Of a stretch of DNA of 64,000 nucleotides, positions 53,839 through 57,225 are shown piece by piece. Every line of letters starts with the position of its first letter. The first letter of the stretch is position 1. Source of the stretch: Aequorivita aquimaris (lineage in GTDB: Bacteria > Bacteroidota > Bacteroidia > Flavobacteriales > Flavobacteriaceae); contig NZ_JRWG01000002.1 of NCBI RefSeq assembly GCF_001573155.1, forward strand, positions 434,001 through 498,000. Reading direction: 5' to 3'. The notes beneath the pieces were generated by a model. It was not told the DNA's origin and searched no databases. It saw only the letters and a program-made list of their open reading frames with translations. The position numbers were made by a program, and so were the translations under genes.

Positions 53839-55737
53839 ATGAGCGACGCGTTAAAACACGAATGTGGAATTGCACTGGTAAGACTGTTGAAACCCTTGGA
53901 GTACTACAAGGAAAAATACGGGACGGCATTTTACGGTGTAAACAAAATGTATTTGATGATGGAGAAACAGCACAATCGCGGACAGGACGGTGCAGGTTTT
54001 GCCAGCATTAAACTGGACGTAAACCCCGGAGAGCGCTACATAAGTCGTGTTCGGTCCAATGCCGCGCAGCCCATTCAGGATATTTTTGCACAGATTAACG
54101 AGCGTATAAATCTTGAATTTAAGAACCATCCCGAATATAAAGATGATGTTGCCGCGCAGAAAAAAAATATTCCATATATAGGTGAATTGTTCCTCGGCCA
54201 CGTGCGGTACGGTACCTTCGGAATAAATAGTGTGGAAAATGTCCATCCCTTTTTACGCCAGAACAATTGGATGCACCGAAATTTAATTATTGCGGGAAAT
54301 TTCAACATGACTAATACCAACGAGCTTTTTGACAACCTCATAAAGCTCGGGATGCACCCAAAGGAAAAGGCCGATACCGTTACGGTAATGGAACGTATAG
54401 GCCATTTTCTGGATGATGCCGTAAGAAAATTATATAAAAAGGCGAAAGCGAAGGGAATGAACAAGCAGGAGGCTTCGCCCTACATTGCCGAAAACTTGAA
54501 CGTCGCCAAAATTCTTCGAAAGTCGGCTTCCAATTGGGATGGGGGATACGCCATGGCAGGTCTTTTGGGGCATGGAGACGCCTTTGTGCTTCGCGACCCT
54601 GCGGGAATCCGTCCTGCGTATTATTATCAAGATGAAGAGGTTATCGTGGTAGCTTCCGAACGGCCGGCAATCCAGACTGTCTTTAATGTTCCCTTTGAAG
54701 AAGTGAAAGAACTGGAACCTGGCAATGCCATCATCATTGAAAAGGATGGAAGCATGAAACTTTCTGAAATACTTGCACCATTGGAACGTAGATCCTGTTC
54801 TTTTGAACGCATTTATTTTTCCCGCGGAAGCGATGCAGAAATCTATCAGGAACGTAAAATGCTCGGAAAACTGATAATGCCGAAAATTTTGGAAGCCATA
54901 AAATACGATACCGAAAACTCAGTATTTTCCTTTATACCGAATACGGCAGAAACTTCCTTCTACGGAATGCTGGAAGCCGCACAGGACGAACTTAACAAAC
55001 AGAAGAACGAGGCTATCCTGAAAGAAAAGGAAAGTTTGACTCCCGAACGCCTTCAACAGATACAGGCGCACAAAATACGCACCGAGAAAATTGCGATAAA
55101 GGACGTAAAATTAAGAACCTTTATTACGGACGATAGCAGCCGCGACGATTTGGTGGCCCACGTTTATGACGTTACCTACGGCGTAGTAAAACCAGATGAT
55201 AACTTGGTAATTATAGACGATAGCATCGTTCGCGGAACAACGCTAAAAAAGAGTATCTTAAAAATGCTGGACAGGCTACACCCGAAGCAGATTGTCGTGG
55301 TTTCTTCGGCGCCCCAAATTCGTTATCCGGACTGTTATGGAATCGATATGGCACGGCTGGAACATTTGGTTGCTTTCCAAGCGGCTTTGGAACTTCATAA
55401 AGATCGCGGCACTTACGCAATTGTGGAGGAGATTTACCATAAATGTAAAGAGCAAGTTGAAATGGAGGACGTTTCAGTTATCAATCATGTCAAGAAATTA
55501 TATGCTCCTTTCTCCGACGAGGAGATTTCTGATAAAATTGCCGAAATAATAAGCGATGTGGATATTAAGGCTAAAGTAAAACTGATTTTTCAGTCTGTTG
55601 ATGATCTTCATAAGGCATGTCCAAAAAATCTGGGCGATTGGTATTTTACCGGAAATTACCCAACAGCAGGTGGGAATAGGGTTGTGAATAGGGCATACAT
55701 TAACTTTTACGAGGGCAATCCCGAACGGGCATATTAA
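53839..55737 (+). CDS. purF: amidophosphoribosyltransferase-type enzyme
   Basis: A 632-residue enzyme of the first purine step, making phosphoribosylamine from PRPP and glutamine. The N-terminal nucleophile should be Cys9 (HECGIALV) after processing. The glutaminase part contains LGHVRYGTFG, and the PRPP site is IIDDSIVRGTT. It is longer than E. coli PurF (505 residues), as usual for this Bacteroidota form. The 880-bp stretch after it carries the two candidate small RNA genes. Confidence 0.93.
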   Translation: MSDALKHECGIALVRLLKPLEYYKEKYGTAFYGVNKMYLMMEKQHNRGQDGAGFASIKLDVNPGERYISRVRSNAAQPIQDIFAQINERINLEFKNHPEYKDDVAAQKKNIPYIGELFLGHVRYGTFGINSVENVHPFLRQNNWMHRNLIIAGNFNMTNTNELFDNLIKLGMHPKEKADTVTVMERIGHFLDDAVRKLYKKAKAKGMNKQEASPYIAENLNVAKILRKSASNWDGGYAMAGLLGHGDAFVLRDPAGIRPAYYYQDEEVIVVASERPAIQTVFNVPFEEVKELEPGNAIIIEKDGSMKLSEILAPLERRSCSFERIYFSRGSDAEIYQERKMLGKLIMPKILEAIKYDTENSVFSFIPNTAETSFYGMLEAAQDELNKQKNEAILKEKESLTPERLQQIQAHKIRTEKIAIKDVKLRTFITDDSSRDDLVAHVYDVTYGVVKPDDNLVIIDDSIVRGTTLKKSILKMLDRLHPKQIVVVSSAPQIRYPDCYGIDMARLEHLVAFQAALELHKDRGTYAIVEEIYHKCKEQVEMEDVSVINHVKKLYAPFSDEEISDKIAEIISDVDIKAKVKLIFQSVDDLHKACPKNLGDWYFTGNYPTAGGNRVVNRAYINFYEGNPERAY

Positions 55738-55836
55738 AATTTCCCAAAATTTAACAGGGCCATTGCCGTTTATCGGAAAGCTAATTCACTTAATCGAAAT
55801 TGTTGATTAACACTGTTTTACTGCTTAAACTTGAAT

Positions 55837-55925
55837 TATATTTGAACTTACCATAAGGCGTAAGTAGGTTAGGTCTATGGTAAGATTTGGGGCAAAATAG
55901 GCAGGCTTAGGTCTGCCTATTTTCA
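55837..55925 (+). ncRNA. candidate small RNA, copy 1, with its own promoter and terminator
   Basis: A -7 element TATATTTG (55837-55844) is followed by a stem-loop with arms CTTACCATA (55847-55855) and TATGGTAAG (55876-55884) and a 20-base loop ending in GTAAGTAGGTTAGGTC. The linker GATTTGGGGCAAAA leads into a terminator hairpin, AAAATAGGCAG/CTGCCTATTTT (55894-55923). No open reading frame of note lies inside. The unit is homologous to copy 2 at 56186. It is not identified with a known family; the Flavo-1 motif is one candidate to test. Confidence 0.6.
55894..55925 (+). terminator. terminator of candidate small RNA copy 1
   Basis: An 11-bp stem AAAATAGGCAG/CTGCCTATTTT with an 8-base loop; the descending arm ends in four T residues. 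Confidence 0.7.
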
Positions 55926-55926
55926 T

Positions 55927-56185
55927 ATAAGCCCTTTACAAGTCTTCATAATTTTCTCTATACCAATTCCAACGAATAATTTCTTCCCACTACTTTTGGA
56001 AAAATAATTCAATTTCTTAACCAAGGAAATCTGTACATCGAAAATTTCTCGCTTAGCCGAAGCGATGGGGTTGTTAAAATCTTAGTTTTAATGAGGTAAT
56101 TTTAGCTGGAATATGTCAAAATATGTTTTTTAACGAAAATATTGGCAATTCATCTAAAAGCATAATTCTGAATGTATTATTGACC
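55927..56185. other. noncoding spacer between the two candidate small RNAs
   Basis: About 260 AT-rich bases with no credible open frame. Only a 5-bp hairpin, CGCTT/AAGCG at 56050-56064, was noticed. Confidence 0.5.
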
Positions 56186-56275
56186 TATATTTGAACATAC
56201 CATTAGCATAAGTAGGTTAAGTTCATGGTAGATTTGGGGCAAAAAAAGGTAAACGATAGTTTACCTTTTTTTATG
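56186..56275 (+). ncRNA. candidate small RNA, copy 2, with its own promoter and terminator
   Basis: TATATTTG (56186-56193) is followed by the stem TACCAT (56198-56203)/ATGGTA (56225-56230), whose loop contains CATAAGTAGGTTAAGTT, then GATTTGGGGCAAAA and a hairpin with arms AAAAAAAGGTAAAC (56241-56254) and GTTTACCTTTTTTT (56259-56272). Loop and linker are nearly the same as in copy 1, the stem pairs are kept, and the terminator sequence is different. This pattern is what selection on an RNA would leave. An open frame through here (56225-56560) is judged to be chance. Confidence 0.6.
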
Positions 56276-56284
56276 CCCAAATCT
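56231..56284 (+). terminator. terminator of candidate small RNA copy 2
   Basis: A long hairpin in which GATTTGGGGCA and the A-rich arm pair with a T-rich arm ending TGCCCAAATC. Stem arms are about 24 bases with a few mismatches, around the loop GATA. Confidence 0.7.
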
Positions 56285-56545
56285 CAACGGGGTGGCGAGC
56301 CATCAGCTTGCTGTTTCTTAAGTTCAGAATTTTATTGCGAGCCGTTTTTCTTTTTCCGGACGCTAGTTTACCTTTTTTTATGTCCCAAATCTTCGGGGTG
56401 GCGAGCAGTTCCGTATTTTCATTCTATGTTTCGGAAATTCAAAGCGAGCCGTTTCCCCTTCCCCCCGAGACACTCGTTTGCCTTTTTCTATACCCAAATC
56501 TCAACTTGTGTCGAGCGGTCTTCGTTTCCTTTTTTACCCAAGGTC
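56259..56545. repeat. three degenerate ~108-bp tandem repeats
   Basis: Units begin with GTTTACC or GTTTGCC at 56259, 56366 and 56476, a period of 107-110 bases; the third is truncated. Each starts with the T-rich arm of the copy 2 terminator and continues with CCCAAATCT, and the first two carry two GCGAGC boxes each (56295, 56337, 56401, 56444). Read on the minus strand, each unit recalls the 3' part of copy 2. Confidence 0.65.
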
Positions 56546-56561
56546 AATTATTTCGCATAAA

Positions 56562-56595
56562 AAAATCCGCAGTTCAAAAATGAAACTGCGGATTC
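56562..56595 (-). terminator. terminator of sod
   Basis: A 10-bp stem ATCCGCAGTT (56565-56574)/AACTGCGGAT (56584-56593) with a T-run on the minus strand, 22 bases past the sod stop. Confidence 0.88.
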
Positions 56596-56616
56596 GGTAT
56601 AATTTATTACTTGAAT

Positions 56617-57225
56617 TTATTTATTCTTCGCATAATTAGAAGAAACTTCTTCCCAGTTAATTACATTCCAAAACGCACCAACATAATCGGGGCGCTTATT
56701 TTGATACTTTAGGTAATAGGCGTGTTCCCAAACATCCAATCCTAAGATGGGCGTTCCGCCGCAGCCTACGCCGGGCATTAATGGGTTGTCCTGGTTTGGG
56801 GTAGAGCAGATTTCCAGTTTACCTCCTTTGTGTACGCAAAGCCAGGCCCAACCGGAACCAAATTGTGTTTTTGCGGCCTCGGAAAATTTCTCCTTAAAGG
56901 CATTAAAACTTCCAAAGGCGCTATCAATGGCTTTGGCCAGATCGCCCGATGGCTTTCCGCCCCCGTTTGGCGACATTACCTTCCAAAAAAGGCTGTGGTT
57001 GTAAAATCCACCGCCGTTATTACGCACGGCTTTATTATCCATATCCAGATTGGTCAAAATATTTTCAATTGTTTTTCCTTCCTTATCGGTGCCCTTAATG
57101 GCATCGTTCAATTTATCGGTATAACCTTGGTGGTGCTTGTCGTGGTGTATCTCCATGGTTTTTGCGTCTATGTGCGGTTCCAAGGCATCAAATGCATACG
57201 GTAATTTCGGTAGTTCGAATGACAT
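56617..57225 (-). CDS. sodA: superoxide dismutase (Fe/Mn family)
   Basis: A 202-residue dismutase. Metal ligands H27 and H77 are visible, with the last two (Asp and His) in [19 protein letters not shown]. The GSGWAWL motif is intact. The pattern favours the Mn type, but metal choice is not certain from sequence. It is transcribed toward purF and ends at a strong terminator, leaving the small RNA region between the two. Confidence 0.95.

Follow-up and report, generated by a model that had tools for sequence, protein, structure and literature searches.

Between a purF-like gene and a convergent sodA-like gene of Aequorivita aquimaris lie two small units that, judged by their sequence, almost certainly belong to a real family of sRNA genes. 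On balance, we lean towards reading them as part of an array of trans-acting sRNAs that would be activated by one orphan LytTR-type response regulator, pair with mRNAs and feed back on that regulator. The features of the locus, numbered by their position in the window (the whole stretch of 64,000 nucleotides that was analysed), are as follows.

53839–55737, plus strand: open reading frame of a purF-like amidophosphoribosyltransferase gene, the upstream neighbour of the units
55769–55795, plus strand: operator-like direct repeats of unit 1, assigned by eye, with motif and period taken from the family-wide analysis
55837–55844, plus strand: predicted promoter −7 box of unit 1, TATATTTG, from the sequence and the TAnnTTTG consensus (PMC9723704)
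55848–55883, plus strand: predicted 5′ hairpin of unit 1, from the fold and a covariance-model match (E 2.9e-8), with the apical loop GUAGG at 55864–55868
55883–55893, plus strand: linker of unit 1, AGATTTGGGGC, from sequence, fold and direct repeat, predicted to be single-stranded except for its first base
55894–55923, plus strand: predicted terminator hairpin and T-run of unit 1, from the fold
56129–56154, plus strand: operator-like direct repeats of unit 2, from an own-genome pattern match without mismatch (C2:490129) and family-wide statistics
56186–56193, plus strand: predicted promoter −7 box of unit 2, TATATTTG, from the sequence
56198–56230, plus strand: predicted 5′ hairpin of unit 2, from the fold and a covariance-model match (E 2.1e-10), with the apical loop GUAGG at 56212–56216
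56230–56240, plus strand: linker of unit 2, AGATTTGGGGC, from sequence and fold, predicted to be single-stranded except for its first base
56241–56272, plus strand: predicted terminator hairpin and T-run of unit 2, from the fold
56617–57225, minus strand: superoxide dismutase gene (sodA-like; Pfam Sod_Fe_C and Sod_Fe_N), the convergent downstream neighbour

A preliminary description of this DNA had proposed the duplication of an RNA gene complete with promoter box and terminator, and the proposal is supported by the wide conservation, the fixed genomic place, the operator-like repeats and the terminators reported below. The two units are homologous and 349 bp apart, measured between their TATATTTG boxes; the TACCAT/ATGGTA arms, TAAGTAGGTTA and GATTTGGGGCAAAA occur in both, as had been described, each unit has a terminator hairpin and T-run of its own, and TAnnTTTG is given as the −7 element in PMC9723704. 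Direct repeats common to the two units have spacings of 349 and 347. The units are predicted to fold at −32.5 kcal/mol (unit 1, z −6.6) and −23.2 kcal/mol (unit 2, z −5.2), values equalled by none of 200 shuffles in either case, and the 5′ hairpins alone give z −5.6 and −3.4. A single unit thus comprises two predicted hairpins, and two units read through together would comprise four. The conserved exposed loop of the preliminary description was upheld as to its conservation but mostly not as to its exposure, because an inner helix is predicted within it, leaving the GUAGG pentaloop and the linker unpaired. For the flanking genes, the best NCBIfam model upstream is TIGR01134 (purF), with 127 bits, under its cut-off of 350, and the sodA-like gene scores 246 bits with the Mn-SOD model, under the cut-off of 363.

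On the 3′ side of unit 2 there are also three direct repeats of about 30 nt (56259–56288, 56366–56395 and 56476–56505, 107 and 110 bp apart), each containing CCCAAATCT, the complement of the first bases of the sRNA linker. The first of them extends the terminator of unit 2 into a longer inverted repeat. These elements could be a sponge or the debris of duplication.

Bases 55837–55899 alone match 121 of the 149 sampled Flavobacteriaceae genomes at E ≤ 0.01 (108 of 125 good genomes; 120 of 148 sampled genera), and the units of the window are therefore not a chance occurrence. The conservation of loop and linker in relatives, on which the preliminary description had made its reading depend, is accordingly present in 121/149 genomes of the family. 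The core pattern was found in at least 116 stretches of named genomes, the genera among the matches listed including Maribacter, Zobellia, Winogradskyella, Aquimarina, Flagellimonas, Salinimicrobium and Flavobacterium. A covariance-model search over relatives, which had been suggested as a check, was carried out with a model made from 38 units and matched 26 of 30 family genomes and none of 166 from the order's other families; in a set covering the phylum (n = 296) the sole match outside the Flavobacteriaceae was weak, with E 0.007, both searches being run with strict filters that miss weak matches. This weak match (G568:C1:2323832–2323886, 31 bits) lies in a genome of another family of the same class.

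Sequence and pattern searches yielded 297 distinct units from 146 loci, 140 of which hold at least one unit, after the removal of one false unit (L077:838) that is still contained in the counts given below for 298 units, in the repeat-period count and in the repeat consensus. As far as the excised loci show, there is one unit in 53 loci, two in 43, three in 25, four in 13, five in 5 and six in 1, with adjacent units a median of 212 bp apart. The genomic place is constant: wherever a locus contains both purF and sodA along with a unit (101 loci), all units sit in the interval from purF to sodA, on the purF strand and with sodA convergent.

Within the units, the first eight loop bases (AGTAGGTT) are 99–100% identical (n = 298), and the hairpin is almost as invariant. 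The 30-base core has a mean pairwise identity of 94%, compared with 48.5% for the 40-base terminator region, although a fold of −6 kcal/mol or below is predicted for 296 of 297 such regions (a count made without a shuffled control) and 254 of 297 units have a T-run. The core therefore keeps its sequence and the terminator its structure. In the alignment of the 5′ hairpin, 96.2% of cells are paired and one of 11 pairs is changed on both sides, in two of 38 rows; the number of such cells was equalled by 28 of 500 shuffles and the covariation score by 98 of 500. Covariation support for this hairpin is weak because the core sequence hardly varies. Of the findings that the preliminary description had named as speaking against it, absence of covariation is thus largely what we see for the 5′ hairpin, whereas the conservation held. 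A structure obtained with RNAalifold from a MAFFT alignment of 87 whole units was discarded, as the terminators were misaligned and one false unit was included.

The same data bear on two simpler explanations of the units. They might be a mere stack of terminators insulating purF from the convergent sodA, and their strong terminal hairpins and their position between convergent genes would suit this role; we nevertheless consider it very improbable, because the hairpin and linker, rather than the terminator, are the most conserved parts, and because a −7 box of the strict form is present in 201 of 298 units and paired upstream repeats in 89 of 296. Even less credible is that the units encode a very small protein from the ATG in the 3′ arm (ATGGTA...), a reading suggested by the open frame of 111 codons that begins at this ATG (56225) in the second unit of the window. 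A difference of one base just after ATGGTA (AA in 185 units, A in 110) shifts the frame between units and leaves the RNA sequence intact, and in 190 of 295 cases the frame stays open to the end of the terminator; this reading was rejected on these grounds.

The preliminary description had not recognised the RNA family and had pointed to Rfam, especially Flavo-1, and the search gave no match to any family for the whole window at gathering scores and none to Flavo-1 for 55300–56700 at E ≤ 5. Under more permissive settings, Rfam scans covering 1.4 kb and 20 loci yielded sub-threshold matches only, the best being STnc40 with 35 bits against a threshold of 45. Flavo-1 (RF01705, gathering score 42 bits) appeared once below threshold, with 28.9 bits in locus L036, and was set aside by its score; FopS (RF04319) was set aside by both score and shape. 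The possibility that the family is a Flavobacteriaceae branch of the Bacteroides sRNAs FopS and GibS, acting on the start codons of SusC-type transporter mRNAs, is suggested by FopS being top by bits in the permissive scan of the 1.4 kb, sharing UUCAUGGU and AGAUUU at nearly the same spacing. In addition, FopS and GibS (RF04319 and RF04182; PMC11697453) are, like the present RNAs, short, multi-copy sRNAs of Bacteroidota that combine a conserved 5′ region with a terminator. Binding to RbpB and repression of susC-type mRNAs are further hallmarks of FopS. However, the FopS score was 24 bits, compared with a gathering score of 56, with E 0.58; FopS was absent at E ≤ 10 from 20 further loci, in which GibS appeared once, with 27.8 bits against 115. 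The 5′ end of FopS is described as single-stranded (PMC11697453), whereas a hairpin is predicted here, and our units form a single tandem array and are, except for the one weak match, confined to Flavobacteriaceae among the genomes searched. Moreover, we found no 20-base antisense start-codon site with up to three mismatches in the own genome, other than in a unit itself. Such a relationship therefore seems improbable.

Soil, marine and freshwater communities all count Flavobacteriaceae among their major members, and fish pathogens belong to the family as well (PMC9723704). Just two studies describing sRNAs in Flavobacterium were found in the literature searched (PMC9723704, PMC5395568), which had nothing on the present array or on LytTR-controlled sRNAs in the group. 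One sRNA of Flavobacterium psychrophilum, Rfp18, is expressed and conserved widely across the genus; when it is deleted, the levels of two metalloprotease mRNAs fall, and pairing is predicted via its third stem-loop (PMC9723704). Like Rfp18, our family is a conserved sRNA of Flavobacteriaceae and is present in three named Flavobacterium species (L052, L073 and L104), but a third stem-loop as the pairing site contrasts with the two hairpins of each unit here. The family may or may not be Rfp18; the two are compared here by description, neither sequence nor locus of Rfp18 having been found in the main text of that paper.

Upstream of the −7 box, many units carry direct repeats of the form TT-A-C, with the consensus TGCATTTCA-C. 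Among the 297 units, the period was 20 bp in 105 instances and 21 bp in 32, compared with 0.7 and 0.95 expected from shuffled sequences. The proximal repeat was found at a fixed distance from the hairpin in 135 of 296 units (shuffled mean 14.9, maximum 29), and both repeats, 20 or 21 bp apart at the fixed distance, in 89 of 296 (shuffled mean 0.19, maximum 2, in 200 rounds); 207 units failed this strict two-repeat test. In the window, the repeats of unit 2 (TTTAAC at 56129–56134 and TTCATC at 56149–56154, period 20) are in the usual place, and those of unit 1 (TTTATC at 55769–55774 and TTAATC at 55790–55795, period 21) are displaced upstream by ∼10 bp, or about one helical turn. Sites for LytTR regulators consist of two direct repeats of 9–11 nt separated by 11–13 nt (PMC4847170), a layout with which the period of 20 or 21 in the 89 units agrees. 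As in the operators of YpdB type, for which the site GGCATTTCAT is given (PMC4847170), there are two direct repeats with a period of 20–21 bp 5′ of a promoter and with a core like GGCATTTCAT; the difference is that the putative sites here precede predicted noncoding RNA genes.

Elsewhere in the own genome, paired-repeat sites lie 5′ of a gene of no known function with a TATATTTG box (L170, C1:115223), of a gene without a Pfam match (L178, C4:169974) and of a LuxR-type response regulator gene (L167, C6:97096). Such single sites may be due to chance, because a reversed control pattern matches as often (30 compared with 23). A further 20-bp repeat pair, with one mismatch, starts 97 bp 5′ of a predicted M4 thermolysin-type peptidase gene (L172, C2:229157). 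We do not claim this gene as a regulon member; a pair was present within 300 bases in six of eight orthologs and in neither L315 nor L316, by a loose test without a control.

Among the 11 LytTR genes of the own genome, one orphan gene (C3:82371–83081) adjoins rpsF and has operator-like repeats upstream, with no kinase gene alongside it in its 3-kb locus. The protein, P0001, consists of a receiver domain (PF00072, 68 bits) and a LytTR domain (PF04397, 68 bits), and it is nearest to BtsR (PRK11697), with 110.7 bits, under the NCBIfam equivalog cut-off of 246. Orthologs at E ≤ 1e-60 were counted by hand in 115 of the 149 family genomes, a cut-off that a different LytTR protein of the same genome reached in 10. 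RNA and regulator occur together in 113 of the 149 genomes, the RNA alone in eight, the regulator alone in two and neither in 26 (Fisher p 8e-20, phylogeny being ignored); for the good genomes the corresponding numbers are 103, 5, 1 and 16. In the set covering the order, the regulator was found in 25 of 30 family genomes: 26 of the 30 carry the RNA, and all but one of these have the regulator, which the other four lack. It was also found in 5 of 166 genomes of other families, there without the RNA. This co-occurrence is confounded by phylogeny, because both queries came from the own genome, so that distant genomes may fail with both.

The promoters of the orphan lytTR genes themselves carry the repeat motif. 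It was noticed first on visual inspection of 30 loci, and the later tests cover these together with 79 of 80 further stretches (one being too short); one of the resulting 109 held an N, leaving 108. The motif was present 16–18 nt before the −7 box in 69 of 108 promoters (shuffled mean 5.3, maximum 11, in 300 rounds) and missing from 39, and 37 of the 69 have a second copy 20 or 21 bp upstream when one mismatch is allowed. A stricter test, less loose in both box and motif, gave 56 of 109, compared with a shuffled mean of 2.1. On either strand, paired repeats were seen at lytTR in 10 of the 30 loci, a count without a control. The motif lies ∼17 bases before the box at lytTR and ∼37 at the RNA genes, positions that would fit repression of the former and activation of the latter. 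Sequence evidence of this kind makes it probable that the LytTR regulator controls the sRNA genes. An rpsF reading frame stands beside the orphan lytTR in 29 of 30 loci and 78 of 80 stretches, usually with rplI too, and a site placed between lytTR and rpsF/rplI could affect these ribosomal genes as well.

The copies of an array are not all alike. Where an array has at least three units, the final one, beside sodA, has a linker of the form GGGA(C/T)G in 37 of 44 cases, compared with none of the 114 other units, and it lacks the paired repeats (0/44), which 47 of the 114 others possess. These differences in linker and repeats indicate that the copies are not all redundant. In arrays of two, the repeat pair was found in 17 of 43 first units and 8 of 43 second units.

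Possible targets were sought by scoring the duplex energy of the RNA with start regions against that of 60 shuffled RNAs, the folding of the RNA itself being ignored. For the largest set of lytTR leaders, which are related to one another, the mean z was −2.47 (40 of 47 sequences used), with 97% below −1.5. The set meant for the own clade gave −1.35 (n = 17, at least one of them misassigned) and a third set −1.52 (n = 18), the scored sets leaving out 27 of the 109 leaders; over 108 leaders, the mean z was −1.46 when judged against shuffled leaders. Sixteen control gene clusters, left from 17 after the exclusion of one that consisted of LytTR genes with miscalled starts, ranged from +0.14 to −1.56, a few of them probably being shadow ORFs. 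Among these, rpsF had a mean z of −1.53 and no consistent site, and is not claimed as a further target. A likeness of the loop to a Shine-Dalgarno sequence was considered as well and is likewise not claimed. The heptamer CTTAACC, the complement of GGUUAAG in the RNA, occurs in all 47 leaders of the largest set and in 55 of 109 overall; it was not used to pick that set, whereas the presence of GTTATGA in 45 of the 47 follows from its construction, as the set was picked by start-codon sequence. In the own genome, two stretches of the RNA are predicted to pair at the lytTR leader: AGUAGGUU with AACCUACU, and CCAUAG, at the GTG start, with UUGUGG. No near-complete antisense site was found elsewhere in that genome, in which five pattern matches compare with 20 for a reversed control. 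In one lytTR clade (e.g. L279 and L282), the leader GATTTAACCCCACAAATCAACCC is near-unchanged in many genomes and the promoter above it varies; part of this leader is complementary to the sRNA linker except for one extra A.

These pairing data are suggestive, and they point to the region around the start codon of the mRNA encoding the regulator as one probable target. We put forward feedback by pairing of the RNA with the regulator mRNA as a tentative proposal, for which we would give slightly less than an even chance. CsrB/RsmY and 6S RNA are RNAs that titrate a protein, and the present RNA might act similarly, with the GUAGG loop and the linker AGAUUUGGGG as the binding site and the tandem copies raising the dose. 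The near-invariance of hairpin and linker, which goes beyond what the predicted structure needs, would be understandable on this basis, as would the multiple copies and the want of a long antisense target in the own genome. The occurrence of CTTAACC in 47/47 leaders of the largest lytTR set would not be expected, however, and we regard protein titration as unlikely.

In the base-pairing scheme that we infer, each unit would be transcribed as an independent gene for a trans-acting sRNA of ∼75–80 nt, made up of a 5′ hairpin with the invariant GUAGG apical loop, the linker AGAUUUGGGGC and a Rho-independent terminator. The orphan LytTR-type response regulator would activate many of the copies via the paired repeats ∼50 and 70 bp 5′ of the start and would also bind its own promoter, a control that seems not to reach the final copy where an array has at least three. 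Base pairing with mRNAs would take place through the conserved hairpin and linker of the RNA, and pairing at the regulator's start-codon region would close a negative feedback loop, as between Qrr and LuxO. A more specific form of the circuit is that the start codon of the activator mRNA is blocked by the RNA, with differing parts of the invariant hairpin in different clades, and that the divergent last copy, not subject to the regulator, sets a basal level; this form is more conjectural than the pairing itself.

The Qrr sRNAs of Vibrio are likewise present as several near-identical copies activated by one response regulator, LuxO, from scattered genes under control of the sigma-54/NtrC type. 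The resemblance, drawn without a comparison of sequences, lies in the near-identical copies, the single response regulator and the suspected feedback on its mRNA; the difference is that the predicted activator here is of LytTR type and that the copies stand in one tandem array. If our reading is true, most of the Flavobacteriaceae would have in common the core of an sRNA regulon resembling that of Qrr and LuxO but built from unrelated parts. The RNA would supply a new Rfam family and, having a fixed place and a likely regulator, it offers a direct entry point for testing RNA-based control in Flavobacteriaceae.
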